Source of the DNA: Bolinopsis microptera
Taxonomy: Eukaryota > Ctenophora > Tentaculata > Lobata > Bolinopsidae
Direction: 5' to 3'
Length of the DNA stretch: 64,000 nt
Assembly (NCBI RefSeq): GCF_026151205.1
Contig: NC_087073.1
Coordinates: forward strand, 16,821,837 to 16,885,836
Both the position numbers and the translations under genes were made by a program. The stretch's first letter is position 1; the number at the start of each line of letters is the position of its first letter. This document shows positions 6,860 to 37,173 of this stretch, one piece after another. The notes under the pieces are model-generated. The model saw only the letters and a program-made list of their open reading frames with translations. It had not been told where the DNA came from and did not search any database.

Positions 6860-9241
6860 TCACGCGGGTGTAATTGAGGCTGATAAACTAGTCCCACTAA
6901 AACACACAGATAATGTATAGCTGTCCCCCCTCTCTACCTCACATCCAAATAATATGGCAGCAGGTCTCCATAAGGGCTCGTCTGAAGAACAAAACTTAGC
7001 CCCCGACTGAAACTCTAACTCAGTCCAAAATACAAGAGCAGTAGGTGGGAGAGGAGCTAAACCCTGAAACTGTATAGTTCTTGAGTTAAGTTGCGGAGTC
7101 TGCTCTGATACTCCCAGTAGGATGAGTTGTTCTGATAGTTTAGTGTGTTCTAGCGTGTTCCATGGTATGTTCTCATGAAGCAGAGTCCTATATTTGTTAA
7201 CCTCTGAAGATAAGGTGTTTGACTGGCTGGTGTCCCTCAGGCACAGAGCTAGAGGGTTCACTCGGGACCACGAGAGAAGTTTCTTGCTGTGCAAAACGTA
7301 GCCACGAAACGATACTGACTTAACTGAGGCATACTGAAACGGATTGCTAATAACAAGTCCACACACATCCACAACTTTTGGAACGACGTTGAGAAGTTCG
7401 TTAGACGAGGACTGAGCGAAGTTGCTGTTGAGCAGTTTAACTTGACTAGGTTCCACAACCGAATACTCCGCCTGATCTCCAACCCACGACAAAAGAACAC
7501 TCACCTCAGTCAGCTCCACCTTGATACCAACCACCTGACCAGATGTAACGTACCGTCTGGGTAACGGGTGGAAACCTTGCTCCCAACACCCCATACGGGA
7601 GTGGTTAGTTTTAGAAAGTTAGGAGCAGTGGTGATGGTGTTGTCCTGGAAGAGATCTGCAGTGAGGAATGAACACACTCCGTCACACCAACCATCTGTAA
7701 TTACAGGTAGTGATATTAATGATAGTGTTCTATCAAAAGTGTCTCCTAGCTTCACTTTAAAGATATTTGCGGGGTCGCTCAGCTGAACTACATCTGTGTA
7801 TTCGTCAATAAACTCACAACAATACGGTTCCTCGGAGGTTCCTATGTTTGTTCTGAAATTACCACAAAATGAACCTAAATGCAAAGTTTGGGAATGAATA
7901 AGAAAGCCTTGTAACGTCACCTGTGAGGGGATAAACCGTATGTTTTTGTTTAATGACCTAAGCGCTAAATCTCGACAGCTCCTAACAATTCCCTCGCCTA
8001 TCCCTATACTATCCAGGGTCTCCGAAACAACCAAATCTACATGATTGCTACCAACATCAAACTCTTCCGAAGAACAATGCCCGAATTTAATGTTACCAAC
8101 ACCAGCGGTTACTGATTTCCCCATCCTACAAACAACCTCATCTTGTTCCACAGCAAATACAGTTGTAGCTCCAGCTGCTGCTGCATAGAGGCTCAATATA
8201 CCAGAGCCAGCTCCCACGTCCAACACAACAGAACGACGATCCTTTAGTTCTGAGAGGAAGCTGGAGATGGCAGAGCTGAATGAGTGATTTCGGCGAATGT
8301 CGTTGAGCATTCTGAAGCTCCATCTTACTACCAGGGTGTTGCGAATGTTGCTCACAGTTTCGAACAGATCAGGATCTAGTATCCTCCTTGAATTACATAC
8401 CACTGAAAAAAATTGTAAGTTGAATATTATAATTAAATTAAATATTGAATATGATGATAATAATCAAAATTTAATATAGACTCTCGATTAACCTGGTTCC
8501 GATGAACCGGGTTTACGATTTACGCATAATCTTACCCTTTATATATATATAAGTATATATAAGTATATATTATATATTGATCCTAGTTTTATATTAAAAT
8601 TTATGTGAATCCATCTAACGGGTCCTCATATTTACTGAGCATTCCAACAACTTGATAAGATAACTAACTACCTCTTGATAAGTAGAGATTAGCCTCCACT
8701 AAGTTTCCCTGTTGCACGGCCGCCCCACCAAACAATCTACACACTGTTTCCTCGTGGTAACTGTATCTTTTAAGCTTGGTTATCTCCTCAAAACAGGCTC
8801 TTTGTTGTTGGGCACACTGGCAGTGTGTGAGCCACGAATCTAGACAGCTCCGTAGTATCTCCCAACACTGCAGTGGTGTGGTAAAGTTAGTGAACACCTC
8901 GCAAATCTTTAGATCTACGACTCTTTCATTTTAAAAACTTCTAAAGGCACAGCTGCATTGATTAGCTTCAGGCTTTTTATACACATAAGAATGCTTCAAT
9001 TCACCTCAATGTTACTATATTATATTTTACAAATGTATGATGTATACTTATATGGCAATTTTGGTCATTTTCAAATTTCACATCTTAGTGGTCAATTGTA
9101 TTTTGGAAGCTTCCAACAACAATTAATATAAATATGGATAATATTCCCTACCTGTTCTATCAAGTTGGTGTCTGAAAGGCGTTGTAGTTTGGAGATAACA
9201 AGACTCACTGCAGTGTCAACACCTACAGTTGCAGCCTTCAT
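6860..9241 (-). CDS. PRMT9: Protein arginine methyltransferase PRMT9, 3 exons, one apparent frameshift
   Basis: Exons on the minus strand: 9152-9241 (start ATG), 8672-8897, 6860-8402. The acceptor of exon 2 (GCGAG) is weak but keeps phase. The N-terminal exons encode a TPR-like helical segment ending in CFEEI---NLYLSR, then the PRMT core: VRWSFRMLND, SAM-binding motif VLDVGAGSGILSL, and the double-E-type loop SETLDSIGIGEG. After the barrel comes the conserved CWEQGFHPLP block. This order (TPR then PRMT) and the xVxRWxFxMLND motif match PRMT9, a type II enzyme that in vertebrates methylates a splicing factor. The frame slips by one base at a run of four G (plus-strand CCCC, 7589-7592); five would restore CWEQ. 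About 619 residues, against 845 in human. It lies 378 bases downstream of TBCB on the same strand. Confidence 0.82.
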
Positions 9242-11436: not shown

Positions 11437-12942
11437 CTAAATTATACTATTTAAATCTTTCTGTTTCCCATGAAAGAGCACCTCACATTCTGCAACACTG
11501 TTAGGAAGTTGTTTGTTCAAAGTTTCAGGAATGCTCTTCATCAGTGACATAGAGGTTAAAATGCAAGCTATGGATATGACGTAGATAAGAGATCCGGATA
11601 TCTGGTTGAGAATGATAACAAAAGGAGAGAGAATGGATGCAATTCTAGCAACAGTTGAGCACATGCTGACACCAGTAGAACGAGCAAGTGTAGGCAGTAC
11701 CTCACTAGTATAAGTGTAGAGCAGACAAAATATACCTCCACCAGCACCATGCCCAATCATAACAAAGATGCTCTTGAGGGTAATCTTACCCCAGTATATT
11801 TCAGAAACATTCGGAACCAGACAGAGTCCAAGAGAAACAGCACAAACTGTAAAGTACCAACGTGTAGAACATTTTCTTCCGTATTTGTATGCAAAGAAGA
11901 TAATTGATAACCTTGCAGGGATATCAATGAGGCCCATCCAGATCATCACGCTGTACTCATCGTCCCCAAGTGAGCCAGCATTAAACTGTAATGCATAATA
12001 ACATGTAGAAACAGTGAACCAGGCAAAGGAAAGTTTCAATATTGACTTTGTAAGGGTTTGGCTAGAGATAATGATTCTGAATGGATTTCCAGATGCCTCT
12101 TCTTCGTTGCATTTAGGGAGTTTGAAATCTATTGGGAGCGGGGGATTTCCATTTATTTTAGCAACAAAGTTAAGCGACCGTATGGCTTCAGAAGTCCTAT
12201 TTTTTGCAAGGAGCCAAAATGGAGTTTCTGGACATAAGACAACATAAAATAACAGTATGATGGTCTGTGAGAAGATCAAAGGTAGAATACTGTCTTGCCA
12301 ATGTCGGTTGCTATACGCTAGGAGACTTGAAACAGAACTTCCTAATGCAAAAGCTGCACCATTTACAATATTAGCAAGAGCACCGATATCTGGTAGGGTA
12401 AATTCACAAAAAGCTGTAAAAGCACAAACGGAAAGTCCAGAATGAAAGAAACCCAGGGCAAAGCGAAATACATAAACCGTTATTAGAGATGTTGATCGAT
12501 ACAAGCCCATGATTGCTAACAGAAACCCAAGAAGAAGAGAAATGTTGGTCTTTTGCCTCCCATATTTATCACAGAGTGAGCTGAGTATTGAAACTCCAGC
12601 CATAAAGCCAACAAAATACACGGTTGTTCCCATTCCTTTCAAATACATATTGTCACAATACAATTCAAATTCTGTTAACCAGTTGTGGTGAGTATTGTCG
12701 AACTTCCATTCCTCTGGTTTGAGTTTGCAAATTAGAGTGTCACCGTTTTCTTTGCCTTGCAAGGCTTGGCAGTTTTGAGATAGGCATATAACCTTGGGCA
12801 TGATGGAGAGTGCCTGAAACTGAAATGTGATACTGCCATTGATGATCCCAATTCCAATGTGTATGAAGAGAAAAATTATCTGGAATCTCCCGAAGTAGCC
12901 AACACGTTCCAAAGCCTCAGGTATCGTGCTAGTAGATGTCAT
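11437..12942 (-). CDS. SLC22-like organic ion transporter, copy A, intronless
   Basis: 501 residues, a plasma-membrane MFS transporter with about 12 hydrophobic segments. The layout is that of SLC22: first helix, a large Cys-containing extracellular loop (CQALQ---LICKLKPEEWKFD), the WLTEFELYCDN motif before helix 2 (as in WDLVCD of SLC22), the MFS signature LCDKYGRQKT, PETPFWLL after helix 6, DIPARL and YKYGRKCS in the second half, and SEVLPTLARSTG near helix 10-11. The substrate cannot be read from sequence; organic cations, anions or carnitine are all possible. A paralogue in the same orientation lies at 22310-23809. The C-terminal quarter of the two is almost identical, while the first half has diverged. 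Confidence 0.85.
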   Translation of the reverse strand: MTSTSTIPEALERVGYFGRFQIIFLFIHIGIGIINGSITFQFQALSIMPKVICLSQNCQALQGKENGDTLICKLKPEEWKFDNTHHNWLTEFELYCDNMYLKGMGTTVYFVGFMAGVSILSSLCDKYGRQKTNISLLLGFLLAIMGLYRSTSLITVYVFRFALGFFHSGLSVCAFTAFCEFTLPDIGALANIVNGAAFALGSSVSSLLAYSNRHWQDSILPLIFSQTIILLFYVVLCPETPFWLLAKNRTSEAIRSLNFVAKINGNPPLPIDFKLPKCNEEEASGNPFRIIISSQTLTKSILKLSFAWFTVSTCYYALQFNAGSLGDDEYSVMIWMGLIDIPARLSIIFFAYKYGRKCSTRWYFTVCAVSLGLCLVPNVSEIYWGKITLKSIFVMIGHGAGGGIFCLLYTYTSEVLPTLARSTGVSMCSTVARIASILSPFVIILNQISGSLIYVISIACILTSMSLMKSIPETLNKQLPNSVAECEVLFHGKQKDLNSII

Positions 12943-14666: not shown

Positions 14667-17600
14667 CTAGATACATTGGCTAGTGTTGGGTGGGATCATG
14701 AATTTATCGTAAGAGTTATCCCCTTGGTAATTCTCATCAGTTAGCACCATATTCATAAGAGTTTCTTTGTATAACTTAGAAAATTTCTTAACGTCGTCAC
14801 ACTCTCTAAGGGACTTTGGTAATATGTTCCAGGCCTTAGTTCCTAGATAGTTAAACTCCTTGTGAGATCTTGATTTAGGAGTATAAAGATTGCAGTTTTC
14901 TGCCTCACGTGATCCACCAGAAATATACGAGAATTTCCCGATAAAATGCTTTGGACATGTTTCATTGATTATACGGTACATATATGAGCTAAGATGAACC
15001 TGTCGTCTCAAATGGAGAGGAAGCCATCCCATATTTTTGTATACATTAACCGACCTCTCTCTGATGTTTACATCTAGGGCTATTTTAGCAACCTTTTTGT
15101 ACATGATATCTAACTCTCCTAGTCGTTTTTTATATGTTCTTGACCAGATAATGTCTAAGTAGTCAAAATGTGGCAACATAAGTGCATTAGCAAACATCTT
15201 CCTGAACTTAAGAGGGAGAAGTTTTTTTGATCTATACATAGCACCAATTCTTTTGGATATCTTTTTCTTAATGTTATCAATATGTTCATTAAATGTCAAT
15301 CTGCTGTCAACTATAAGTCCAAGGTACTTATGGGATTTAGTTTCACAGATTACCAAAGTAAGGTCATCACAAATTTCAACAAGGATGGCATCAAGGTTAG
15401 GCTTAGAGTCAAGGATCATTAGTTTTGTTTTTTCATTATTCAGGGATAGTTTATTAGCCTGAAGCCATCTGATAACTAATTTCAACTCTTGTTTGATGTT
15501 ACCATAGTTTCCTCTAGATATATTGTCAAAATATAATGCACCGTCATCAGCAAATAGATAAGGTTTAGAAAATAGGCATGCATTAGGCAGGTCATTGATA
15601 AAAATGCTGAATAGAATTGGTCCTAATATACTTCCTTGAGGCACTCCAGAGTTCAATGAATGTAAACTGCTTATCCTACTCCCAACTCTAGTTTGCTGTA
15701 ATCTATCTGTGAGGAAGCTCCTAAACCAGCTCAATGCAGTATTTTTTATTCCATAATGCTTCAGCTTTTGAATGAGAATATCATGGTTAACAGTATCAAA
15801 TGCCTTTCTGATGTCCAGGAAGATAATTGCAGGATGCTTGGCACTGTTCTTAGCAGTAAATATACGATCAAACAGATCTAACATGAGATAAGTTGTAGAG
15901 TGATCTTTACGGAAACCATATTGATGCTCTGAAAGTATTCCCTTTTCATCAAGATATTGAGTCAGTTGGGAGTTCACACAAAATTCGATGCACTTTCCAA
16001 GAATCGGTAAAATTGAGATTGGTCGATAATTACTAGGATTCTCAGTATCACCATCCTTATGGATTGGGGTGACTTTTGCAACCTTGCAGCTGTTTGGCAT
16101 GATGCCACTGGATAAACTCAAATTTACAAGATGTGTTAATGGAGCAATAAATGCAGGTAAAATTTGTCTAAACACTCTCAATGGTATATGATCATTAGTG
16201 GATTTGCTACGAGGGATACTTGCCACATAGTCTAAGATATTGGACTCAGTTATTTCAGTAAAGCTATTCAAGCTGGTCTCGTTGTCAATCTGCTCATTTT
16301 GTAGATAAGATAGAAATTCATTTTCATTTTCCAGCTGCACTTCTGCTTGGATCTTTGGACCTATTTCAGCAAAATATTTATTGGTGGTTTCAGCATCAAG
16401 ATTGTTATTGATATTGTTAGCTTTAACAGGCAGATTTGATGCTGTCTTTATCGTTTTCCATACACCCTTTAGATCATTCATGGCACACTTGGCTTTCAGT
16501 TCTGTTGCTAAGTTAGTCTTCCTATTAATTCTAGACAAATAGGTTGAATAGTTTCTCTGCCGTTTATATGCCATCCATAATGAGTCACATTTATTACAGT
16601 GTATAAGACCATTTGGATGTATACGTCTGTTCTTGTTGTGTGTTAAAAATTTACGGTAAAGTTTCCCTTTCAATTTCTTACTTTCTAAAAATTCTGGAGA
16701 TGGCTTATGGATGTAATCACTATGGCACTTAATTTGTTTAATTGGACAGAAGTGATCATAGTAGTGATCAATATGTTCGTTTAAACCATCAACTGCATCA
16801 TTCAGACTAGTTGAATCTATTATTGGTCTATAATCACAAGTTTCCAAAAATTCTTTAAGAGCAGTAACATTCATTTTGCTGTGATCTCTTATTAGTAACT
16901 TCTTGAATTTTGAAGCCTTATGCACATTGAAATCGACAATGAACTTTACGACCTGATGATCTCCTATACAATCATCAAGGACTTTGCAGTCAAGAAACTT
17001 GGAGTAAGTGTTTGTTATGACAACATCGATTGTGGTCTTTGTGATTCTGTTTCCTAGTTTAGCAATGCGGGTAATATCCTGAACTACCTGTACCATTCCA
17101 AACATTTTCATTGTAATGTCTAATTTCTTATAGTTCATACTGCTGATGTTGTTTTGGTCTACATTTACATCACCCAGCCAAATAACATTCTTACTTCCTA
17201 TACTCATCATGCAGTCTGTCATATAATCTAAAAATTTGTCAAGAGGACTAAACAACTCAGATCTGTAGAAACAGCAGATGAAAATATTGCAATCTGTAAG
17301 ATGGATCCAAATAGCCTCGATTTGGTCATATTGCAAAACTAAGTTTAGTTGAATCATTTTAAACTTTATGTGCTCACTGATGAGAATGCCACATCCCCCA
17401 TGACCATTGTCGTTAGGACGGTCTTTGCGGATGAAAGTAAAATTCTTGGGTAGGTTTAGACTGGCTGAGTCAATATCCGACTTAAGATTTGTTTCATTCA
17501 GGCATAAAACATCTAATTTCTCTTTCCAGATTAGATCTTGGATTTCAAGACATTTTGGCATACCTGTTAGTCCTCCCTGCATGTTGCAATGTCCCACTGC

Positions 17601-17687
17601 AAGCTTTTTGGCATGGTATGAAACTGTGATTTTACTAATGCACGGGTTAATGCAAGAACTGCTGTGAGAGCATGAAAATTTTTCCAA
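14667..17687 (-). CDS. LINE ORF2: apurinic endonuclease and reverse transcriptase
   Basis: 1006 residues, full length. The N-terminal third is an APE-type endonuclease: Asn in CNMQGG (~34), Glu in LCLNETN (~64), WLGDVNVDQNN and TTIDVVITN in the middle, and the catalytic GDHQVV. The reverse transcriptase follows, with NYRPISILPILGKCIE, GFRKDHST, FLDIRKAFDTVNHD, GVPQGSILGPILFSIFIND and the active-site box FADD. The thumb region has KYLGLIVDS. The single FADD and endonuclease type place it in the CR1/Jockey group. The protein nicks target DNA and copies the LINE RNA in place. No stop or frameshift is present. Confidence 0.93.
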   Translation of the reverse strand: MEKFSCSHSSSCINPCISKITVSYHAKKLAVGHCNMQGGLTGMPKCLEIQDLIWKEKLDVLCLNETNLKSDIDSASLNLPKNFTFIRKDRPNDNGHGGCGILISEHIKFKMIQLNLVLQYDQIEAIWIHLTDCNIFICCFYRSELFSPLDKFLDYMTDCMMSIGSKNVIWLGDVNVDQNNISSMNYKKLDITMKMFGMVQVVQDITRIAKLGNRITKTTIDVVITNTYSKFLDCKVLDDCIGDHQVVKFIVDFNVHKASKFKKLLIRDHSKMNVTALKEFLETCDYRPIIDSTSLNDAVDGLNEHIDHYYDHFCPIKQIKCHSDYIHKPSPEFLESKKLKGKLYRKFLTHNKNRRIHPNGLIHCNKCDSLWMAYKRQRNYSTYLSRINRKTNLATELKAKCAMNDLKGVWKTIKTASNLPVKANNINNNLDAETTNKYFAEIGPKIQAEVQLENENEFLSYLQNEQIDNETSLNSFTEITESNILDYVASIPRSKSTNDHIPLRVFRQILPAFIAPLTHLVNLSLSSGIMPNSCKVAKVTPIHKDGDTENPSNYRPISILPILGKCIEFCVNSQLTQYLDEKGILSEHQYGFRKDHSTTYLMLDLFDRIFTAKNSAKHPAIIFLDIRKAFDTVNHDILIQKLKHYGIKNTALSWFRSFLTDRLQQTRVGSRISSLHSLNSGVPQGSILGPILFSIFINDLPNACLFSKPYLFADDGALYFDNISRGNYGNIKQELKLVIRWLQANKLSLNNEKTKLMILDSKPNLDAILVEICDDLTLVICETKSHKYLGLIVDSRLTFNEHIDNIKKKISKRIGAMYRSKKLLPLKFRKMFANALMLPHFDYLDIIWSRTYKKRLGELDIMYKKVAKIALDVNIRERSVNVYKNMGWLPLHLRRQVHLSSYMYRIINETCPKHFIGKFSYISGGSREAENCNLYTPKSRSHKEFNYLGTKAWNILPKSLRECDDVKKFSKLYKETLMNMVLTDENYQGDNSYDKFMIPPNTSQCI

Positions 17688-19721: not shown

Positions 19722-19952
19722 AGTTATATTATCAAGAGTTCAATGTTCAGAAGCACAATAAACACTGTAAACGCAATACCTTCAGTCCAGATAATAGTTT
19801 TGATGAGAATAGTTTTGATGAGAAGGAGGAGGATGAGTAATCTTCAAGTACACTCACAGCAGTCCTTTGCACGTCAACACTTACGCTCGTCTATCATATC
19901 TCATACCTCAAATTATTTGTTATATAGTAGTGTTGAAAGTATTAAAACTCTA

Positions 19953-21356
19953 GACGTGGCAGCATTATATCCTAGCATCAGGCCTGAACTAGCGCTTACT
20001 GCTCTTGAGGATGCCCTCAATAGTGATACCAACTTCTCACAAGAGCTAAAAGCGGCTTTGCATGAGTTCACTGACCTGATTTTCCGGGAGTCCTTTGTCA
20101 CTTATCAGGGAGAGGGATACATTAACAAGGAGGGTATCCCGACGGGAAATTGTATCTCAAGACAAGTGGCAGATGTGACGATGCATTGGCTATTGTTTAA
20201 ACAGATCAAAGGAAAGATGAAAAACTGGAGTTTGGTAGACCTCTGGAGGAGATTTATTGATGATGTACTTGGGGTGTGGTTAGGAACAGTCCGACAGTTC
20301 AATCTATTCGTGGAGCAACTGAACAAACTGGCAGAACCATTTGGAATCAGATTTGCTGACCAACAAATCGGTAAAACTGTTAATTTCCTTGACATCACTC
20401 TAACCTTGGATACTTACAACCAGATCCAATATAGACTCTACAGAAAGGAGACAGATGCTAGGAATTACTTGCGAACGGATAGCTTTCATCCTCACCATGT
20501 ATTCGAATCTGTGGCGTTTTCCCAGATGATACGAATCATAGAAAGGAACTCGCAAGACTCAACCTGTGTAGAAGACTTAATGGAGCTGAAAGCAGATTTA
20601 TCTAAAAGCGGACATAACAGCGTTAAGTTAGAGGAGATCGAGCCGAGAGCAGTTGTCAGAGTACTGGAGAACACCCACGGAGCCAACAGGTCTAAGGAGA
20701 GTGAGAACGCTGATAACTTAGTCTTTTCAGTACAACACTCTTCGGACAACATTCAGCTGAAGAAGTTGATTCACGAACTTGGACCGGACATCAGGAGGAT
20801 ATGTGGAGATATACGTGTGATATTTGCCACACGAAAACATCCTTCAATCGGAAACAGGGTAGTGAAGAATCGACAACTTGGAAATAAGGCTGAATGTCCC
20901 CAAAAAACATCACAGAAGTGCTCAGCCCCTGGATGCAAGACTTGCCCGGTATTGTTCGATCTTGACTCTAAGATCATGGTCAACGGCATGGAGCTTAATC
21001 TAGACGAATCCCTCACGTGCAAAGATAAGCACATTATTTACGTTGCACAATGCCAGCAGTGTAGGGCTATTGAGGGATCTGAGGACACTTACTTTGGGCA
21101 GACGTTGACTCCATTCCACATTAGGCTCAATGGGCACCGGAACAAGTTCAACATTGACGACCGTGCCCTCTACGAGCACTCAGCCTTATCAATGCATTGT
21201 TACGATGTACACAAGGACACTTTCAGTTTTGACTGTTTCAAATTCGGGATTGTGAAAAAGACTAAACCTTCCCTATTAGATAGGGAAGAGGCTAGATTTT
21301 GTGCAAAGTTTAGAACTAATGTTTGGGGTTTAAATAGGATGGAAATTAAAAGGTAG
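19953..21356 (+). pseudogene. Penelope-like element protein, C-terminal half with GIY-YIG nuclease
   Basis: 467 codons in the same frame as the upstream half. The reverse-transcriptase palm begins immediately (DVAALYPSIRPE), then IPTGNCISRQ, the active site RFIDDVLGVW and NFLDITLTL. A linker with a Cys-rich knuckle follows (CPQKTSQKCSAPGCKTCP), then the GIY-YIG endonuclease typical of this class: IIYVAQC, YFGQT, RLNGHR and a Glu-containing DREEARF near the end. So every domain of a Penelope-like protein is present, and only the LINE insertion breaks it. Upstream reading through 19743-19946 belongs to the LINE leader and is not part of this protein. Confidence 0.85.
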
Positions 21357-22309: not shown

Positions 22310-23809
22310 TTACACTGACTCAACTTTCTGTTTCCCATGAAACAGCACCTCACATTCTGCAACACTGTTAGGAAGCTGTTTGTTCAAAGTTTCCGGAATA
22401 CTCTTCATCAGTGACATAGACGTTAAAATGCAAGCAAAGGAAATAAAGTAGATCAGAGATCCGGATATTTGGTTGAGAATGATAACAAAAGGAGAGAGAA
22501 TGGAAGCAATTCTAGCAACAGTTGAGCACATGCTGACACCAGTAGAGCGAGCAAGTGTAGGCAGTACCTCACTAGTATAAGTGTAGAGTAAGCTAAAGAT
22601 ACCTCCACCGCAACCGTGCCCAATCATAACAAAGATGGTCTTTAGTGTCATACTACCCACATAAATCTCAGAAACACTTGGAACCAGACAGAGTCCAAGA
22701 GCAACGGCACAAACTGCAAAGTACCATCTTGCTGAACATTTTCTTCCATATTTGAATGCAAAGAAGACAATTGATAACCTTACAGGGACATCAACAAGAC
22801 CCATCCAGACCATTACGCTGTATTCATCATCCCCGAGTGAACCTGCATTAAATTGTAATGCATAATAGCAGGTAGAGACGGTAAACCAGGCAAAGGAAAG
22901 TTTCATAACTGCATCTCTGAGAGTCAAGTTGGAGATGATGATTCTAAATGGATTTTCAGATTCCTTCTCTTCATTACATTTAGGAAGTGTGAAATCTTTT
23001 GGCAGTGGTGGATTTCCATTTAGTTTCGCAACAAAGTTGAGTGACTTTATGGCATCAAAATTTCTGTTTATGGCAAGGAGCCAGAATGGGGTTTCTGGAC
23101 ATAAAACAATATAAATTAGCAAGGTAAGACATTGAATGAAAATCAAAGGTTGAATACTGTCCTGCCAATATTGGTTATGATATGCAAGAAAACTGGAAAC
23201 AGAGCCTCCGACCGTGAAAGCAGCTCCAGCTGAAACGTTAGCAAATGCAGCAATATTTGGCAGGGTGAATTCATTGAAAGCTGTGAAAACACAAACTGAA
23301 ATTCCAGAATGAAAGAAACCAAGGGCAAATCGAAAGAAATAAACCTTAGATAAGGTAGTAGAGTTATGTAAACCAATGAGTGCCAGCAGATATCCCAGAA
23401 GAAGAGAGATATTTGTTTTTTGTCTCCCAAATTTGTCACAAAGGGAACTCAGCAAGGAGACTCCGATCATAAAGCCAACAAAATACACAGTTGTTCCCAT
23501 TCCTTTCAAATACGTATTGTCACAGTACAGTTCAAATTCTGTTAGCCAGTTGTGGTGAGTATTGTCGAACTTCCATTCCTCTGGTTTGAGTTTGCAAATT
23601 AGAGTATCATCACCTTCATTGTCTTTCAGAGCTTGACATCTTTCAGACAGGCATATAACGTCAGGCATGATAGAGAGAGCCTGGAACTGAAATGTGATAC
23701 TGCCATTTAAGCAGGAGCTTCCAACAAATATGATGAAAAATATAATCTGGAATCGGCCAAGATAACCCACAGATTTCAAAGCCTCTGGAATTGTACTAAC
23801 TGATGCCAT
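22310..23809 (-). CDS. SLC22-like organic ion transporter, copy B, intronless
   Basis: 499 residues, the paralogue of the gene at 11437-12942 with the same SLC22 landmarks: Cys loop CQALKDNEG, WLTEFELYCDN, LCDKFGRQKT, PETPFWLL, FKYGRKCS, SEVLPTLARSTG. It runs in the same direction about 9.4 kb away, so this is a tandem duplication later spread apart by retroelements. From roughly residue 385 to the end the two proteins differ at only a handful of positions, and the DNA coding for SEVLPTL to HGKQK is nearly identical. The N-terminal half differs more, for example GIINGS versus SCLNGS. Copy B lacks the DLNSII tail. A plasma-membrane location is expected; the substrate is unknown. Confidence 0.85.
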   Translation of the reverse strand: MASVSTIPEALKSVGYLGRFQIIFFIIFVGSSCLNGSITFQFQALSIMPDVICLSERCQALKDNEGDDTLICKLKPEEWKFDNTHHNWLTEFELYCDNTYLKGMGTTVYFVGFMIGVSLLSSLCDKFGRQKTNISLLLGYLLALIGLHNSTTLSKVYFFRFALGFFHSGISVCVFTAFNEFTLPNIAAFANVSAGAAFTVGGSVSSFLAYHNQYWQDSIQPLIFIQCLTLLIYIVLCPETPFWLLAINRNFDAIKSLNFVAKLNGNPPLPKDFTLPKCNEEKESENPFRIIISNLTLRDAVMKLSFAWFTVSTCYYALQFNAGSLGDDEYSVMVWMGLVDVPVRLSIVFFAFKYGRKCSARWYFAVCAVALGLCLVPSVSEIYVGSMTLKTIFVMIGHGCGGGIFSLLYTYTSEVLPTLARSTGVSMCSTVARIASILSPFVIILNQISGSLIYFISFACILTSMSLMKSIPETLNKQLPNSVAECEVLFHGKQKVESV

Positions 23810-27936: not shown

Positions 27937-28905
27937 CTACTATGCTATTACTGGTCTCTTGACTAACTCCCAATCATCTGTCCATTTGTCATACGTTGTA
28001 TGACCCGCCGCGCACGAAGTGCGCGGCTCCCCCTGTAGCGTCGAAGACTATAGTGAAGCTGTAGCGTCGAAGACTGTAGCGTCGAAGACTATAGTGAAGC
28101 GACAGTGGGGGTCACCACGTGATACAACTGTCCATATGGTATTGTTTCTGGACAAATAGATGGTATACGATGCCCTCAGGCTGATCTCAGCGATCTTCAT
28201 GCAGGCCTTCTTCTTCTCTTTGTTGTTTACGTTCAGGTGGTTAAAATTAAGATTAAAAATTGAAAACGAACTGAACTAACAAAAAGAATGACACGTCATG
28301 CTAAAATACATATTCCGAAGTAAGATTAATCCCAAATTTTCCCCAAATGTCAAAATACTTATCGACAAAGAGACATTCGATAATAAACTTGTTAGGTCTA
28401 GTACAACCTAAGATTTCAACGAAACAAGAAAGGATATTAAAATTATACCCGTGCCGGTTCCAAATGTGAGACAGCGCTTAAACCAAAAGCAGTTGGCAAA
28501 AGGAGCCAGTGTCCTGTAAGAGCTTTACTAGCATCCGAAATACCACTCTTGGTGCACAAACTCAAGCCTAAAACCGGCCGAGCACAAAGATATGTTATCG
28601 CGCGCAACGATTGCGTGGATTGATCCCAGAATATTTATCAGCACGCAACACTGATAATATAAAGTTCACTATCGAATTTTAGATAGGCCATGGAACGTTT
28701 TACTTAAATATAAGTCGTCATTAGAGAATAATTAATTTGATTCACGATGTCAATCCTTCGCATCTCAACGCTCTGCATATTTGCATAAGTGGTTGCGAGA
28801 AGCATTATTGGGTGTAGGCGCGCGGCCCAGTATTGCATTGTAGGTTTTATACAACCTTGCTCTAACCAGAGCCCTTTCGCTTGCAGTAGCGCAAGACCGC
28901 CGTAG
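27937..28905. other. Flank of the large palindrome with short repeats
   Basis: It contains a GC-rich hairpin (CCGCGCAC-gaa-GTGCGCGG, about 28008-28026) and three partial direct copies of GTAGCGTCGAAGACTATAGT around 28036-28100. At 28737-28755 is TTGATTCACGATGTCAATC, repeated beyond the palindrome at 35197. No gene recognised. Confidence 0.55.
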
Positions 28906-28960
28906 GAGTAGTGTAAGAGGATTTTTTCGAGCTCCGTTTACCCCTAAAATTGGGGTACAT

Positions 28961-29033
28961 TTAGCTTTAGCACAGTTGACTAATCTGCCAGATTTTTTAG
29001 CCGGAGATTACAAGTTCGAATCCCAGTCGAAGC
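28961..29033 (+). other. tRNA-like (Lys-type) sequence, probably a pol III promoter remnant, left arm
   Basis: A box-A-like TAGCACAGTTG at 28968-28978 and a perfect box-B GTTCGAATC at 29014-29022 are spaced as in a tRNA gene, with a loop TTTTTTA where the anticodon loop would be (UUU, Lys-like). The acceptor ends pair partly (GCTT with GAAGC), but the T-stem does not pair, so it is not a working tRNA. It resembles the tRNA-derived head of a SINE. Confidence 0.45.
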
Positions 29034-29827
29034 CATTCTTTTCTGCTTGATTGGTGCAGCGGTTTCATGTCATCATCTTCGCCTGTCACATGACTTATCT
29101 AGTCACGTGACTTGTGTAATTGAAGATGAAGCTGTACATTTATTTAATTAGATGATTCGTATTCTATTCAGATAGTCTCTAGATATAAATGAAACACCAA
29201 GTATCACTATCAACAGCGTTAACATCTGGCACGCGGCGACCTTTTATTTGTAAAGTGTGCTGATAAAGTGAGATAATGAATAATGAGCTTTCTAAATTTA
29301 ACTAGGGACAGAGTGTACCGTTTCAGGACAACACCTGCAACTTTGCTTACACTATCATTCAGCGTTCAGCGGTGTGTTGCGTAAATTTTGACTCTGATTC
29401 AGCTTTAATTGTTATTATCTTTAACTTTAAGGTTAAGTTTTTAATTCTTTTACCGTAGTCGGTCACGTAACACTGACTGTTTGATATGAAATCTAATTTA
29501 TAAAGAGCACTTTCAGGATGCAGATGGTTACTCTACAGCAGCTCAAGAATACTACGTCATTGTATAGCCATAAGCCTTGTACAGCATAGTTACAGTAACA
29601 TCTGTGCAATGTATTTGACACAAATCTCTTGTCAAGAACTGGTCTAGATATTTTCTACTTTCTAAAATTATATCATATGAATGAATACTGAATGATAATT
29701 ATAATGTATTATTTAAATAAGTTATAATGTAGACAAGGAAACACACGTTTAGATTTTTGAAGATAACTTAAACAAAACTATATTCAATAACTCTATATCA
29801 TATATATTATATATGTCCAAATACTTA

Positions 29828-30463
29828 TCAATAGTTAACAACGTTTTGGTTATAAAGTTCATGAATCTTCCTAACGATATTTTTGTTCTCGTTCATTAGT
29901 TTGTTGACATCAGATAGACTAGTAGTCATGATAACTGCATCCAATAGAGCTCGCTCTTCCATACTTAAAATTGTGGTGATATCTTGTCCACAGTCAGCGA
30001 GAAGCTGCTCCAATGTCTCAAAAATTTCAGTTTTCATTATGTAAGAGAATAAAAAGTCGAAACATGTGTCTTCCTCTTTACATAATTTTCTTTGTAACAG
30101 GACGTCTAGAGTTTTGAGTAATTTCGACATCTTCACCTTTTTATTTATTTGCTTGATTACTACACCTTTTCGCTTGCCTTTGCGTTGTCGAACAATACTA
30201 GATTCTGTTTTTGACTCATCATCACCGCTTGTTTCCTCAGAGTTAGAACCGTCTTGATGAGATCTTTCAGATATTGTTGTATCAGTATCTGAATATGTGG
30301 CAGCAGGATAATCCATTTCAACATCAGACACATCCGAGTTAGCTTTTGACACGATAGAGCTTGTGTCTGACTGTACGTTCTCTCGATGAAACCGACTTTT
30401 GTGTGAGGACAGACTTCGCTTGTTAGCGAATTGTTTATCACAGAGCGGGCAAAACATTGACAT
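29828..30463 (-). CDS. C2H2 zinc-finger protein of the palindromic element, left copy
   Basis: 211 residues from the first ATG (30463). One classical finger at residues 5-27 (CPLCDKQFANKRSLSSHKSRFH), a Ser/Asp/Glu-rich middle, a basic patch (RQRKGKRKGVVIKQINKKVK) that could be a nuclear signal, and a mostly helical C-terminus ending NQNVVNY. I do not recognise the C-terminal half. The start is supported by a TATA box 38 bases upstream (30501-30507). The frame is open further upstream, but only with non-ATG starts. It is identical in sequence to the right copy at 33275-33910, so both arms are either very young or kept alike by gene conversion. Inferred role: DNA binding for the element itself. 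Confidence 0.7.
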   Translation of the reverse strand: MSMFCPLCDKQFANKRSLSSHKSRFHRENVQSDTSSIVSKANSDVSDVEMDYPAATYSDTDTTISERSHQDGSNSEETSGDDESKTESSIVRQRKGKRKGVVIKQINKKVKMSKLLKTLDVLLQRKLCKEEDTCFDFLFSYIMKTEIFETLEQLLADCGQDITTILSMEERALLDAVIMTTSLSDVNKLMNENKNIVRKIHELYNQNVVNY

Positions 30464-30500
30464 CACTGATTGAAATGAACTGTTCCCGACAGTCTTCTCC

Positions 30501-30507
30501 TTATATA
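30501..30507 (-). promoter_or_regulatory. TATA box of the left zinc-finger gene
   Basis: TATATAA on the minus strand, 38-44 bases before the start codon, within CGCCTATATAAGGAG. Mirror copy at 33231-33237. The short distance leaves a very short leader, as in compact mobile-element promoters. Confidence 0.6.
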
Positions 30508-30589
30508 GGCGACTGCTCACAAATTTACGCAAATATCGCTTAATTTTACTCAAATGTTATTCAATGCTTCAATACTCAATGTTGTTAAT

Positions 30590-33165
30590 TTTTTGGTCCT
30601 ATATTATTCGATGTTGCCCAAATGTTGCTTAGTGTTGCTTAATGACCAATGTTGATTAATGTTGTTCGATGTTGCTAGATATTTCTCAATATTGTTCATT
30701 TGGTCGTATATTATTCAATGTTGCTCAAATGTTGTTCAAATGTTGCTAAAATTCTGCTTAAATGCTGCTTAAATGTTGCTTAAATGTTGCTAAAATTAAA
30801 TGTTGTTTCACTGTTGCTTAAATGTTGCTTAAATGTTTCCTAATATTGTTAAATGTTGCCTAAATGTTGTTAAACATTGCTGAATATTGCTGAGTGTTGT
30901 TCAAATGTTGCCCAAATGTTGCTTAGTGTTGCTTAATGACCAATGTTGATTAATGTTGTTCGATGTTGCTAGATGTTTCTCAATATTGTTCATTTGGTCG
31001 TATATAATTCGATGTTGCCCAAATGTTGCTAAGTGTTGCTTAATGACCAATGTTGATTAATGTTGTTCGATGTTGCTAGATGTTTCTCAATATTGTTCAT
31101 TTGGTCGTATATTATTCAATGTTGCTCAAATGTTGTTCAAATGTTGCTAAAATTCTGCTTAAATGCTGCTTAAATGTTGCTTAAATGTTGCTAAAATTAA
31201 ATGTTGTTTCACTGTTGCTTAAATGTTGCTTAAATGTTTCCTAATATTGTTAAATGTTGCCTTAATGTTGTTAAACATTGCTGAATATTGCTGAGTGTTG
31301 TTCAAATGTTGCCCAAATGTTGCTTAGTGTTGCTTAATGACCAATGTTGATTAATGTTGTTCGATGTTGCTAGATGTTTCTCAATATTGTTCATTTGGTC
31401 GTATATAATTCGATGTTGCCCAAATGTTGCTAAGTGTTGCTTAATGACCAATGTTGATTAATGTTGTTCGATGTTGCTAGATGTTTCTCAATATTGTTCA
31501 TTTGGTCGTATATTATTCAATGTTGCTCAAATGTTGATCAAATGTTGCTAAAATGCTGCTTAAATGCTGCTTAAATGTTGCTTAAATGTTGCTCAAATTA
31601 AATGTTGTTTAAATGTTGCTTAAATTTTGCTTAAATGTTTCCTAATATTGTTAAATGTTGCCTAAATGTTGTTAAACATTGCTGAATATTGCTGAGTGTT
31701 GTTCAAATGTTGCCCAAATGTTGCTTAGTGTTGCTTAATGACCAATGTTGATTAATGTTGTTCGATGTTGCTAGATGTTTCTCGATATTGTTCATTTGGT
31801 CGTATATTATTCAATGTTGTTCAAATGTTGTTCAAATGTTGCTAAAATGCTGCTTAAATGCTGCTTAAATGTTGCTTAAATGTTGCTCAAATTAAATGTT
31901 GTTTAAATGTTGCTTAAATGTTGCTTAAATGTTTCCTAATATTGTTAAATGTTACCTAAATGTTGTGAAACATTGCTGAATATTGCTGAGTGTTGTTCAA
32001 ATGTTGCCCAAATGTTGCTTAGTGTTGCTTAATGACCAATGTTGATTAATGCTGTTCGATGTTGCTAGATGTTTCTCAATATTGTTCATTTGGTCGTATA
32101 TTATTCAATGTTGCTCAAATGTTGTTCAAATGTTGCTTTAATGCTGCTTAAATGCTGCTTAAATGCTGCTTAAATGTTGCTTAAATGTTGCTTAAATGTT
32201 GCTAAAATTAAATGTTGTTTCACTGTTGCTTAAATGTTGCTTAAATGTTTCCTAATATTGTTAAATGTTGCTTAAATGTTGTTAAATTGGTCATTAAGCA
32301 ACACTTAGCAACATTTGGGCAACATCGAATTATATACGACCAAATGAACAATATTGAGAAACATCTAGCAACATCGAACAACATTAATCAACATTGGTCA
32401 TTAAGCAACACTAAGCAACATTTGGGCAACATTTGAACAACACTCAGCAATATTCAGCAATGTTTAACAACATTAAGGCAACATTTAACAATATTAGGAA
32501 ACATTTAAGCAACATTTAAGCAACAGTGAAACAACATTTAATTTTAGCAACATTTAAGCAACATTTAAGCAGCATTTAAGCAGAATTTTAGCAACATTTG
32601 AACAACATTTGAGCAACATTGAATAATATACGACCAAATGAACAATATTGAGAAACATCTAGCAACATCGAACAACATTAATCAACATTGGTCATTAAGC
32701 AACACTTAGCAACATTTGGGCAACATCGAATTATATACGACCAAATGAACAATATTGAGAAACATCTAGCAACATCGAACAACATTAATCAACATTGGTC
32801 ATTAAGCAACACTAAGCAACATTTGGGCAACATTTGAACAACACTCAGCAATATTCAGCAATGTTTAACAACATTTAGGCAACATTTAACAATATTAGGA
32901 AACATTTAAGCAACATTTAAGCAACAGTGAAACAACATTTAATTTTAGCAACATTTAAGCAACATTTAAGCAGCATTTAAGCAGAATTTTAGCAACATTT
33001 GAACAACATTTGAGCAACATTGAATAATATACGACCAAATGAACAATATTGAGAAATATCTAGCAACATCGAACAACATTAATCAACATTGGTCATTAAG
33101 CAACACTAAGCAACATTTGGGCAACATCGAATAATATAGGACCAAAAAATTAACAACATTGAGTA
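30590..33165. repeat. AATGTTGCTTA-type satellite core with an orientation switch
   Basis: Built of ~11-base units such as TTAAATGTTGC, TCAAATGTTGT and TTAATGACCAATGTTG, grouped in higher-order blocks of about 300-405 bases. The block start (GTTGCCCAAATGTTGCTTAG) recurs near 30612, 30908, 31013, 31308, 31418 and 31706. From about 32286 the same units run in the opposite direction. The 11-base spacing is close to one helical turn. Confidence 0.85.
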
Positions 33166-33230
33166 TTGAAGCATTGAATAACATTTGAGTAAAATTAAGC
33201 GATATTTGCGTAAATTTGTGAGCAGTCGCC

Positions 33231-33237
33231 TATATAA
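33231..33237 (+). promoter_or_regulatory. TATA box of the right zinc-finger gene
   Basis: TATATAA, 38 bases upstream of the ATG at 33275. It is the mirror image of the left-arm box, so the two promoters are back to back around the satellite and fire outward. Confidence 0.6.
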
Positions 33238-33274
33238 GGAGAAGACTGTCGGGAACAGTTCATTTCAATCAGTG

Positions 33275-33910
33275 ATGTCAATGTTTTGCCCGCTCTGTGA
33301 TAAACAATTCGCTAACAAGCGAAGTCTGTCCTCACACAAAAGTCGGTTTCATCGAGAGAACGTACAGTCAGACACAAGCTCTATCGTGTCAAAAGCTAAC
33401 TCGGATGTGTCTGATGTTGAAATGGATTATCCTGCTGCCACATATTCAGATACTGATACAACAATATCTGAAAGATCTCATCAAGACGGTTCTAACTCTG
33501 AGGAAACAAGCGGTGATGATGAGTCAAAAACAGAATCTAGTATTGTTCGACAACGCAAAGGCAAGCGAAAAGGTGTAGTAATCAAGCAAATAAATAAAAA
33601 GGTGAAGATGTCGAAATTACTCAAAACTCTAGACGTCCTGTTACAAAGAAAATTATGTAAAGAGGAAGACACATGTTTCGACTTTTTATTCTCTTACATA
33701 ATGAAAACTGAAATTTTTGAGACATTGGAGCAGCTTCTCGCTGACTGTGGACAAGATATCACCACAATTTTAAGTATGGAAGAGCGAGCTCTATTGGATG
33801 CAGTTATCATGACTACTAGTCTATCTGATGTCAACAAACTAATGAACGAGAACAAAAATATCGTTAGGAAGATTCATGAACTTTATAACCAAAACGTTGT
33901 TAACTATTGA
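33275..33910 (+). CDS. C2H2 zinc-finger protein of the palindromic element, right copy
   Basis: Second copy of the 211-residue protein described at 29828-30463, with every residue the same: one C2H2 finger near the N-terminus, acidic Ser-rich middle, basic patch, helical C-terminus. It is transcribed away from the palindrome centre. The ATG lies in GTGATGTCAATG; a second in-frame ATG two codons later would give a protein two residues shorter. Codon use is A/T-rich like the surroundings. The function is not known to me. A single finger plus a basic patch suggests DNA binding, not catalysis, and no DDE, RT or recombinase motif is present. Confidence 0.7.
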   Translation: MSMFCPLCDKQFANKRSLSSHKSRFHRENVQSDTSSIVSKANSDVSDVEMDYPAATYSDTDTTISERSHQDGSNSEETSGDDESKTESSIVRQRKGKRKGVVIKQINKKVKMSKLLKTLDVLLQRKLCKEEDTCFDFLFSYIMKTEIFETLEQLLADCGQDITTILSMEERALLDAVIMTTSLSDVNKLMNENKNIVRKIHELYNQNVVNY

Positions 33911-34704
33911 TAAGTATTTGGACATATATAATATATATGATATAGAGTTATTGAATATAGTTTTGTTTAAGTTATCTTCAAAAATCTAAACGTGTGTTTC
34001 CTTGTCTACATTATAACTTATTTAAATAATACATTATAATTATCATTCAGTATTCATTCATATGATATAATTTTAGAAAGTAGAAAATATCTAGACCAGT
34101 TCTTGACAAGAGATTTGTGTCAAATACATTGCACAGATGTTACTGTAACTATGCTGTACAAGGCTTATGGCTATACAATGACGTAGTATTCTTGAGCTGC
34201 TGTAGAGTAACCATCTGCATCCTGAAAGTGCTCTTTATAAATTAGATTTCATATCAAACAGTCAGTGTTACGTGACCGACTACGGTAAAAGAATTAAAAA
34301 CTTAACCTTAAAGTTAAAGATAATAACAATTAAAGCTGAATCAGAGTCAAAATTTACGCAACACACCGCTGAACGCTGAATGATAGTGTAAGCAAAGTTG
34401 CAGGTGTTGTCCTGAAACGGTACACTCTGTCCCTAGTTAAATTTAGAAAGCTCATTATTCATTATCTCACTTTATCAGCACACTTTACAAATAAAAGGTC
34501 GCCGCGTGCCAGATGTTAACGCTGTTGATAGTGATACTTGGTGTTTCATTTATATCTAGAGACTATCTGAATAGAATACGAATCATCTAATTAAATAAAT
34601 GTACAGCTTCATCTTCAATTACACAAGTCACGTGACTAGATAAGTCATGTGACAGGCGAAGATGATGACATGAAACCGCTGCACCAATCAAGCAGAAAAG
34701 AATG

Positions 34705-34777
34705 GCTTCGACTGGGATTCGAACTTGTAATCTCCGGCTAAAAAATCTGGCAGATTAGTCAACTGTGCTAAAGCTAA
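34705..34777 (-). other. tRNA-like (Lys-type) sequence, right arm
   Basis: Exact inverse of the left-arm copy at 28961-29033, with box B at 34716-34724 and box A at 34760-34770 on the minus strand. If the boxes work, both would drive pol III transcripts inward, from the outer ends toward the centre. Confidence 0.45.
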
Positions 34778-34836
34778 ATGTACCCCAATTTTAGGGGTAA
34801 ACGGAGCTCGAAAAAATCCTCTTACACTACTCGTAG

Positions 34837-35764
34837 GCGGCAAAGGATATATATATATTTAACTTGTGAAACAAGCGCGTCACGCAGTACGCGTATCACG
34901 TATACACAATACATATGGCTATGTAAATATACAACCTACCAGGACGCGCGCCGAATTGGACTCGTCGCGACGGTCCCTAATAGATTGAACAAATATTTTA
35001 CGAGTATCACCTGTTAACGTTTGATCAAAAACTTGGTTTCAGCTTCCCCTGTGTGCTGTGTCTAGATCGTTGCCCTTGATTATTATATTGAACCAAGCTC
35101 AAAAATATTATTTATGTTTAACCATTATTTTTAGATATAAACGCGGCGCGTAAAAGCACATGGTTAAGTAACCCCTACTATTGCCATATCATTTAGTTGA
35201 TTCACGATGTCAATCATTCGCAGCTCGGAGAACAAAAGCCCATTTTAATGAATTTGGCCAATCTCTGTGGTTGCGAAGAGAATTATTGAATGCGCGTTAC
35301 CGGGCCGCGCTCAGCCTGTCATTCCGCCTAATCTCTATTGTTGTTTAACAACATTAAAGCCTGGGGTCCTCAGGTAAAATGCGCGGTGCGGCCCAGTAGT
35401 GCATTGCGCTACAAACAATTTAGTATCAAAGTGTTCAGGATAGGAAAGGAAGGCAACTTAACTGAATTAGCGTTTCGGTGTGTGGAAAAGCTTTCAGGCA
35501 CGCGCATTATATTCTTTGCCCCGTTATTTACCTGTCCTTCCAAAACCAAACTAGCAGTCAAGGACAAAAAGTCATACACCAAAATAAATTATATTTAAAG
35601 GATTGTTTTACATCTTTTTATTCTGCAAAATGTGCTAAAATTAAATTTTTTTGTTTCAATGAATTTCTTGTTTTATTGAACTCTTAATACAATAGTTGCA
35701 ACCACATATACTGCAATTTCTTGTAGCGCGATGCGTTACTGTGCCGTGCCGCGCACTCAATGTA
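34837..35764. other. Right flank of the palindrome
   Basis: No gene. TTGATTCACGATGTCAATC at 35197-35215 repeats the phrase at 28737-28755 in the same direction. GCGGCCCAGTAGTGCATTG near 35389 matches GCGGCCCAGTATTGCATTG near 28823. So a dispersed repeat appears on both sides of the palindrome. Confidence 0.55.
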
Positions 35765-37173
35765 TCAACTCTACCTGTATTCGGGGAAATTCTAGAAAAG
35801 TTAATTTATAAGAGGCTCTATAGTTTCCTTACTTCCAAGGGGATAATACATGAAAACCAGTTCGGCTTTAGGAAAGGACACTCCACCAGCCATGCACTGA
35901 ACTACTCTGTAGAACATATAGAATCGTTAATTAGTAAAAAGCAACATGTCCTAGGGGTCTTCATCGATCTCTCAAAAGCCTTTGACACTCTAGATCACTG
36001 TAAACTAACTACTAAATTAAAAAACTACGGTATAAGAATCTCTGAATCTTATCTCTGAATCCTATCTCAAGTTACTTGTCTTATAGGAAACAATTTGTAA
36101 ATGTTCTAGATACCAAATCTGATGAATTTCCGGTCGAATTTGGAGTCCCTCAGGGTAGTGTATTAGGACCTCTACTTTTCCTACTGTATATCAATGATAT
36201 TTGCAATATAACTAATAAGGGCAAATTTGTCTTATTTGCAGACGATACTAATATATTTGTCGCTGCCGATTCGAAAAATAAAGCATACGAATTGGCTAAT
36301 GAAGTACTACAGGCCGTAAACAAGTATATGGGAGTTAACCTACTGCACATTAATGTAAAGAAGTGTTGTTATATGTACTTTTCTCCCTCTAAACGTGATA
36401 ATAGCGAATTAAATGCAGATATAGATAGCCAAAACTTGTCCATAAATAACAAAATAATTAAACGTGTAAGTCAGACAAAATTTCTTGGAGTAATCATTGA
36501 TGATAAACTAAGCTGGAAACCACACATATTATCTCTCAATAAGAAACTAAGTAGTGCTTGTGGACGTATCTACCGTATTAAGAAATGCTTGCCAGAATCA
36601 CTATATAAGCAAATATATCATTCCCTTTTTGAATCACACCTAGGTTATGCTATTTCTGTCTGGGGAGGTATTCCCAATAATCAGTTGAAACCGCTATTTA
36701 TTACTCAAAAGAAGTGTATCAGGATTCTCTTTGGAGACTTTGAAGCCTATGTAGACAAGTTCAAGACATGTGCTAGAGCAAGACCAATTAATTCTCAACG
36801 TCTAGGATCTGAATTCTATGTTAAAGAGTCCACCAAACCTCTATTCACAAAACACGAACTACTTGCTATAGAGAACCTATACAGATACCGTTGTTTAAAC
36901 GAATTGTTTAAGATCATTAAGTCACGAGTACCAATTTCGTTATACTACCTATTCGGCTTATCAAATAGGAAAGATAATTTGTTAATCACGCCCTCTCCAA
37001 CTAATCAATTTATGTACAAATCTGCATGGCTGTGGAACGAATTTCGTAAAGTTGGGCCGATGAATTTCACCTCCCCTTGCAGCTCTGTCAAGAATTTGCT
37101 TAAACAGTCACTTCTAAGAGCTCAAAACAGGTATGGAACTGATTGGTGTGACAAAAATTTCACTGAATTCTGA
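35765..37173 (+). pseudogene. 5'-truncated LINE reverse transcriptase
   Basis: Begins inside the RT fingers (VFGEILEKLIYKRLYSFL), then NQFGFRKGHSTSHAL, FIDLSKAFDTLDH, GVPQGSVLGPLLFLLYIND and the active site FADDTNIF. KFLGVIIDDKLSW follows, with a typical LINE C-terminal region to the stop at 37173. One frame break lies at about 36040-36076, beside a small duplication (TCTCTGAATC-TTA-TCTCTGAATCC). There is no endonuclease, so this is a dead fragment, probably 5'-truncated at insertion. It differs in sequence from the CR1-like LINE at 14049-19946, so it is another family of the CR1/L2/Jockey group. No poly-A or microsatellite tail was identified. Confidence 0.85.

Follow-up and report, generated by a model that had tools for sequence, protein, structure and literature searches.

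Palindromic defective adenovirus DNA, known from virus stocks, consists of one end of a linear, protein-primed genome duplicated in inverted orientation. In the snap-back genomes of adeno-associated virus (AAV), one parental end is present in self-complementary form, either symmetric or asymmetric with a single-stranded loop, and replication proceeds with functions given in trans (PMC8235507, passages on these genomes). Among transposons, intact vertebrate Mavericks most commonly end in (AGT)2//(ACT)2 and have 6-bp duplications (PMC8097293, passages on ends and duplications). Here we describe a palindromic element of 5.9 kb in the window, i.e., the whole 64-kb stretch of Bolinopsis microptera contig NC_087073.1 that was analyzed (coordinates are those of the window unless a locus is named). 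The element has the termini AGTAGT//ACTACT, a perfect 6-bp duplication (CGTAGG) on both sides, and an identical zinc-finger gene in each arm. We consider it likely that it is a non-autonomous, palindromic, snap-back-type derivative of a Polinton/Maverick element, mobilized in trans. By sequence comparison the kinship with Polinton/Maverick elements is well supported, and we infer both the snap-back formation and the hairpin correction of the arms.

With Polinton/Maverick elements the window element shares the end motif, the 6-bp duplication, and terminal inverted repeats, and its longer relatives in this genome carry pieces of polymerase B. It is unlike them in its length (the intact vertebrate elements average 16.9 kb in the part of PMC8097293 that treats them), in being a palindrome with 2.5-kb arms and a gene in each arm, and in having no polymerase match and no integrase found. 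The likeness to AAV snap-back genomes lies in one parental end taking a self-complementary form, asymmetric with a loop. AAV, however, is a parvovirus with hairpin rather than protein-primed replication, and its snap-back forms were found as packaged DNA; the passages concerned (PMC8235507) describe no target duplication, whereas the forms here are known from genome sequence and have moved repeatedly. Galileo and Foldback of Drosophila likewise have long inverted arms with tandem repeats, high arm identity, and chimeric copies; in contrast, theirs is a 7-bp duplication with a P-type transposase, and the relevant parts of PMC3573991 describe no gene pair in the arms. The original prediction, made from the sequence letters alone, was thus right that the element resembles fold-back elements in build, but its view that the arrangement is of an unrecognized kind does not stand: the termini and the duplication length equal those reported for vertebrate Mavericks (PMC8097293, same passages), and the arm matches the gene-bearing end of polymerase-bearing elements.

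The stretches 28906-31452 and 32286-34832 are reverse-complementary at 2547/2547 positions, with the constant mirror sum (63738) and absence of differences that had been predicted. The exact 2547-bp match stands as well, but its outermost base pair is assigned to the target-site duplication, so that the element proper is 28907-34831 and each arm measures 2546 bp. Its features are as follows.

28901..28906, plus strand: left target-site duplication, CGTAGG
28907..31452, plus strand: left arm, begins AGTAGT (arm comparison, end scan)
28958..29050, plus strand: left tRNA-like unit, with A-box-like TAGCACAGTTG, a B-box-like stretch seen by eye, then TTTT
29828..30463, minus strand: zinc-finger gene, left copy, 211 codons plus stop, transcribed outward
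30592..32285, plus strand: satellite with a monomer of about 11 bp and higher-order units of 401 and 294 bp, left-arm orientation
31453..32285, plus strand: spacer, 833 bp, present once, continues the left-arm satellite
32286..33146, minus strand: satellite of the left arm, repeated in right-arm orientation
32286..34831, minus strand: right arm, ends ACTACT, 0 differences from the left arm (arm comparison, end scan)
33231..33237, plus strand: TATATAA stretch, upstream of right gene; mirrored on the minus strand at 30501-30507
33275..33910, plus strand: zinc-finger gene, right copy, identical, transcribed outward
34688..34780, minus strand: right tRNA-like unit
34832..34837, plus strand: right target-site duplication, CGTAGG

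The satellite of the left arm continues through the spacer with its orientation unchanged, and the right arm starts abruptly at 32286, which makes the spacer a one-sided extension of one arm. The spacer is asymmetric and 833 bp long, as predicted, but it is no independent satellite core, being rather more left-arm satellite in left-arm orientation. Similarly, the GTAG seen on both sides is present as the core of CGTAGG, but the duplication is 6 bp, not GTAG. Well beyond the duplication, the two flanks have a 39-bp stretch in common (28728-28766 and 35188-35226, 87%, direct orientation), which is perhaps an older dispersed repeat.

The genome searched comprises 264.65 Mb in 232 contigs. The outer 1654 bp of the arm gave at least 79 matches (40 of 166 candidates scored), the terminal 140 bp at least 51 (40 of 51 scored), and the zinc-finger protein at least 142 (150 of 164 scored). 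When same-strand protein matches within 700 bp were merged under a 10-kb cluster limit, at least 69 clusters of zinc-finger-gene matches resulted, 38 of mirror type (30 '-+', 2 '-++', 5 '+-', and 1 '++--'); the remaining 31 had a single gene-like place, in some cases a mere fragment. None of the 69 clusters had two separate places on one strand alone.

We then took 23 stretches of genome around matches (L021-L043) which, with the window, make 24 sequences scanned for ends and duplications. Eleven of the 24 are palindromes that end in AGTAG..CTACT and are flanked by perfect 6-bp duplications, each of a different sequence (window CGTAGG, L021 AACGTG, L022 GTTGCA, L024 CTGACC, L033 AATTTG, L035 CTTTTA, L036 GAGGTC, L038 TCTCAT, L039 GGCGGC, L040 GACGCC, and L041 TAGGGT); the scan tolerated one mismatch, and none was used. 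The Maverick end motif proper is present in the window as AGTAGT and ACTACT, and L041 has AGTAG only. The flanks of these palindromes are otherwise unlike where compared, L041 excepted: the L041 copy sits inside a tandem array containing TAGGGTTACTGTTAC (L041:900-1265 and 7924-8765), so its duplication is less independent than the others. Thirteen sequences (L023, L025-L032, L034, L037, L042, and L043) gave no palindrome with duplication, and in eight of them (L023, L026, L028, L029, L030, L037, L042, and L043) the stretch omits one end. The search for other copies, which had been proposed as a check, thus yields a multicopy family, and a single copy with no target duplication, which would have counted against the prediction, is not what the genome holds. 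With target duplication, many copies, and a matched gene pair, the window palindrome is indeed a defined mobile element.

The palindromes are not uniform in build. The gap between the genes is 2.6-3.4 kb in the window (where it is mostly satellite), L021, L022, L024, and L041, and only 15-554 bp in L033, L035, L036, L039, and L040. Five clusters (C2:2740063, C3:10811657, C8:4795225, C9:11010182, and C11:8111028) hold inward-facing gene pairs, opposite to the window; the left half of one of them was read (L043). These unlike centers and inward-facing clusters indicate that palindromes formed more than once, or that their centers were often remodeled. L038 has mirror arms yet a zinc-finger gene match on one side alone, and L036 has an extra 3.2-kb stretch on one side. 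Across subfamilies the outer arms hardly align, so that the mismatch counts (564 in 1151 columns for window versus L041, 405 in 1084 for window versus L033) show family difference only; the L041 protein matches the window's at 67%. A 3.2-kb element at L027:4800-8017 has ends from different subfamilies and flanks that do not match and is, judged by these sequences, a chimera.

The connection to Polintons comes from the longer relatives. L028, L029, and L030 each have a single terminus, then one zinc-finger gene and the satellite, and beyond these lie pieces of a type B DNA polymerase gene; the sequences of L025, L028, and L029 read N in part. Window-arm positions 789-2562, counted from 28907, are collinear with the end in L030 at 81%, spanning gene and satellite, and the arm matches L028 and L029 likewise. 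L030 and L042 are the two ends of one element, here called the C12 element (ends at L042:31 and L030:8117). It is flanked by GATACA on both sides, provided that the right end is taken as (ACT)3; if GATACA is perfect, one end thus carries (AGT)2 and the other (ACT)3. The jump-back start of protein-primed copying might leave such variation in the number of terminal trinucleotides. What L042 has in common with the window arm is the terminus of about 136 bp and short bits only; hence the C12 element is not palindromic, and both palindrome arms correspond to the same, gene-bearing end of a Polinton-like parent. That both arms derive from one parental end, as expected of a snap-back, was found on one parent-like element with both ends read.

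A 674-amino-acid (aa) open frame in L042 aligns with the protein P0018 (36% over 361 aa), which exceeds the Pfam cut-off for DNA_pol_B_2 (38.3 bits vs 25.8). Polymerase pieces are present in L023, L026 (46 aa only), L028, L029, L030, L031, and L042; in L031 the N-terminal, middle, and C-terminal pieces follow in that order on a single strand, and the terminus that lies outward of them resembles the window's at 91% over 772 bp. A search of solved structures with the polymerase pieces gave no useful match. The polymerase of this family is of the protein-primed kind, and the one here is presumably so too. None of the 11 duplication-flanked palindromes, window element included, has a polymerase match, and for this reason we class them as a Polinton/Maverick derivative and not as full members. 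No integrase was recognized by eye in the frames read and, in line with the earlier statement, no enzyme of the palindrome's own was found. For capsid, packaging ATPase, and protease, no frame was recognized by eye in the stretches read, and no family search was made. Two further arrangements were seen beside polymerase pieces. At L023:3927-8133 a one-arm stretch (satellite, gene, and arm to position 270) lies between the polymerase pieces of a 21-kb element, as if inserted into its polymerase gene, and at L030:482-1923 a 1.4-kb (ATTT) run of about 360 copies lies between polymerase pieces, with a similar run in L031.

Within a copy, the two arms change together. Over the outer 1650 bp there are 0 arm-arm differences within the window, L022, and L024, whereas these copies differ from one another by 25, 103, and 117 substitutions. 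At 122 of the 123 ungapped variable columns within 1660 bp, left and right arms agree in each of the three copies; the single exception is a column at which the L022 arms are unequal. Arm-arm substitutions per 1200 bp number 0 in the window, L022, L024, L035, and L036, 1 each in L033 and L038, 2 in L041, and 3 in L021; the L041 arms have 8 differences in 2668 bp. These longer arm stretches separated the copies, whereas a gene-only comparison within versus between copies did not and is uninformative, the gene being too alike within a subfamily.

Two further observations bear on when and how the arms are matched. L021 has four substitutions and a 7-bp insertion, each in one arm, with the other arm equal to the left arms of the window and L022. 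From the sequences, these one-arm changes look to have arisen after insertion and to have stayed uncorrected, and their persistence argues against rapid correction in the chromosome. L035 and L036 occupy two sites, each with its own duplication, and their outer arms are near-identical. They have in common a 7-bp indel in one arm only, in swapped orientation between the copies, and it follows that the palindrome moved as a unit. A dinucleotide difference between L035 and L036 is present in both arms of each copy. Taken with the retained indel, this points to tract-wise correction rather than to a rebuilding of the whole arm at each move.

The origin that we favor, a snap-back from a Polinton-like parent, would run as follows. 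Two inverted copies of the parent's zinc-finger end would have been joined within the satellite or close to it, with the DNA polymerase gene left out. A snap-back during strand-displacement (protein-primed) replication could create such a palindrome: the copying strand would fold on itself in or near the satellite and be copied back to its own end, and the one-sided loop left behind would be the spacer. Being short and having an origin at each end, the palindrome would be amplified by a polymerase and integrated by an integrase, both acting in trans. While it is mobile, its single strand would fold as a long hairpin, in which mismatches would be corrected tract by tract, so that the arms stay alike. 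Snap-back copying would explain in a single step why one end is doubled, why the spacer is one-sided, and why the centers are unlike.

Several results weigh against this origin. With 7 and 19 arm-arm substitutions, respectively, in 1200 bp, L039 and L040 are weaker cases of like arms; their outer stretches hold satellite. The asymmetric 7-bp indel of L035 and L036 means that arms are not fully rebuilt at every move. L031, which bears a polymerase together with terminus and satellite, gave no zinc-finger match. The closest polymerase-bearing collinear match is 81% overall (gene part 94-96%), and no direct parent of the window copy was among the sequences read. The polymerase pieces gave no direct Pfam polymerase match, the assignment running via P0018. 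In the C12 element, of which about 12.2 of 14.5 kb was read, no integrase or capsid frame was recognized by eye (frames of at least 110 aa in L030 and at least 80 aa in L042), and the parent may therefore itself be non-autonomous. An integrase family search (150 of 394 candidates scored) gave no place inside six long elements; by eye, the places it did give look like long terminal repeat (LTR) elements in frame length.

If the snap-back origin is true, the family would be a heritable counterpart of the defective-interfering genomes of viruses. To our knowledge, the replication mode of Polintons has been deduced mainly from their genes; a large family of one-end palindromes is the product expected of strand-displacement copying with snap-back, and genome sequence thereby offers a test of that mode. 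Should the arms be corrected before insertion, the divergence between them would date each insertion, much as it does for LTR pairs. Judged by titles and the starts of abstracts among the matches listed, no palindromic or snap-back Polintons were found in the open-licence literature. A broader proposal, tentative and perhaps somewhat more doubtful than not, is that Polintons here spawn self-perpetuating snap-back parasites, which form repeatedly as mirror-image halves built on the zinc-finger end at varied fold points, undergo hairpin correction, reintegrate as palindromes, outnumber single gene copies, and carry a double dose of a zinc-finger gene under selection. On this proposal the palindromes would be fossils, in the chromosome, of protein-primed replication and effectively inherited defective-interfering genomes of a virus-like transposon.

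The rival that survives best, although we think it unlikely, is that chromosomal recombination between copies lengthened the terminal repeats of an ordinary Polinton-like element, a broken end having used another copy's opposite end as repair template, and the copied tract having extended beyond the repeat. This mechanism is discussed for repeat extension in Galileo, which shows such extension, has repeats that are 98-100% identical within a copy, and includes chimeric copies whose flanks are unlike (PMC3573991, in the sections concerned); the chimeric L027, with ends from different subfamilies and unmatched flanks, would fit as well. However, chromosomal repair yields a palindrome at one site, whereas the one in L035 and L036 moved as a unit and is present at two sites with different duplications. 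Mirror-type clusters also exceed single ones (38 vs 31 of at least 69), there are at least two kinds of center with some inward-facing pairs, and recombination alone leaves the joint change of the arms unexplained.

Somewhat less probable again is a single origin of the palindrome, with the arms later kept alike by gene conversion between them in the chromosome. The agreement of the arms at all but one of the ungapped variable sites (122/123) is what such conversion would give, and short conversion tracts would leave the pattern of L035 and L036, with the dinucleotide in both arms and the 7-bp indel uncorrected. Against this, L021 retains its four substitutions and 7-bp insertion private to single arms, by which we reject post-insertion conversion as the sole homogenizer, and the unlike centers and inward-facing pairs do not fit a single origin.

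It is very improbable that this is a fold-back element unrelated to Polintons and belonging to another superfamily (Foldback, or Galileo of the P superfamily). The long inverted arms of such elements, with internal tandem repeats, are matched here, but the duplication is 6 bp and not the 7 bp given for Galileo (PMC3573991, same sections), the ends are the Maverick motif, and elements bearing polymerase B have the same termini, gene, and satellite; the P-type fold-back was rejected on the duplication and the polymerase-bearing relatives. Least credible of all is an assembly or sequencing artefact from a hairpin read: a perfect palindrome is a classic artefact form, but perfect 6-bp duplications flank 11 palindrome loci (on which ground a single-copy artefact was rejected) with flanks otherwise unlike where compared except in L041, the spacer is asymmetric, and the arms are not identical at every locus (L021 has 3 differences in 1200 bp, L041 8/2668). 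Ginger elements were rejected for their 4- to 5-bp duplications and other ends (PMC2836005, in the part describing these).

As for the gene itself, the two coding parts without the stop (211 codons; 29831-30463, minus strand, and 33275-33907, plus strand) are identical and face outward. The predicted matched pair of C2H2 genes therefore holds, with the qualification that the zf-C2H2 Pfam match is sub-threshold (E=0.0037, 18.1 bits vs cut-off 25.2); nevertheless, C5, C8, H21, and H26 are invariant in 14/14 aligned sequences (the window and 13 relatives), in which a C-terminal LSDVNKLMNEN stretch is also kept. The predicted TATA box of each gene is likewise there, as TATATAA about 40 bp upstream of the ATG, and recurs in four of seven other copies examined (L024, L028, L041, and L043; not found in L033, L039, and L040). 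Pairwise ratios of nonsynonymous to synonymous substitution (dN/dS), computed with our own script, are 0.32-0.50 between four divergent groups (window type, L033/L040, L041, and L043), from which the protein is or was under purifying selection; within-subfamily values (0.13 to 1.33) involve few changes and were not used. The protein is probably a DNA-binding accessory factor. In L022 the reading frame is split in both arms, and an intact gene in cis is thus dispensable in some cases. We dropped the attempt to name a function from solved structures or folds: the best structure match had E 0.029, with nothing convincing, and no match at E 0.001 came from a fold search with the protein model, which is weak (mean predicted local distance difference test score, pLDDT, 56) and reasonable only in the helical C-terminal part from about residue 108.

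Near the ends, the tRNA-like unit with its TTTT is conserved, with 36 units in the window and 18 of the 23 fetched stretches; it was not found in L038-L041 and L043; L035 and L036 have three units close to each end, and L042 has two. Of the 36 units, 22 matched an A-box pattern and none a strict B-box pattern, the B-box-like stretch being by eye one letter off consensus. The predicted tRNA-like outer ends thus persist as a conserved unit but not as tRNA genes, which are ruled out since ARAGORN found no tRNA gene and there was no Rfam tRNA match. The unit could be an RNA polymerase III unit used by the element.

Elsewhere in the window, a 537-aa frame at 19743-21356 looks by eye Penelope-like, with a reverse transcriptase and after it a GIY-YIG-type end, and further reverse-transcriptase-like frames were seen by eye at 14667-17687, 36076-37173, and 57920-59731. 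Two similar transporter-like frames of about 500 aa, also recognized by eye, lie on the same strand at 11437-12942 and 22310-23809 and are probably a duplicate pair separated by mobile elements.

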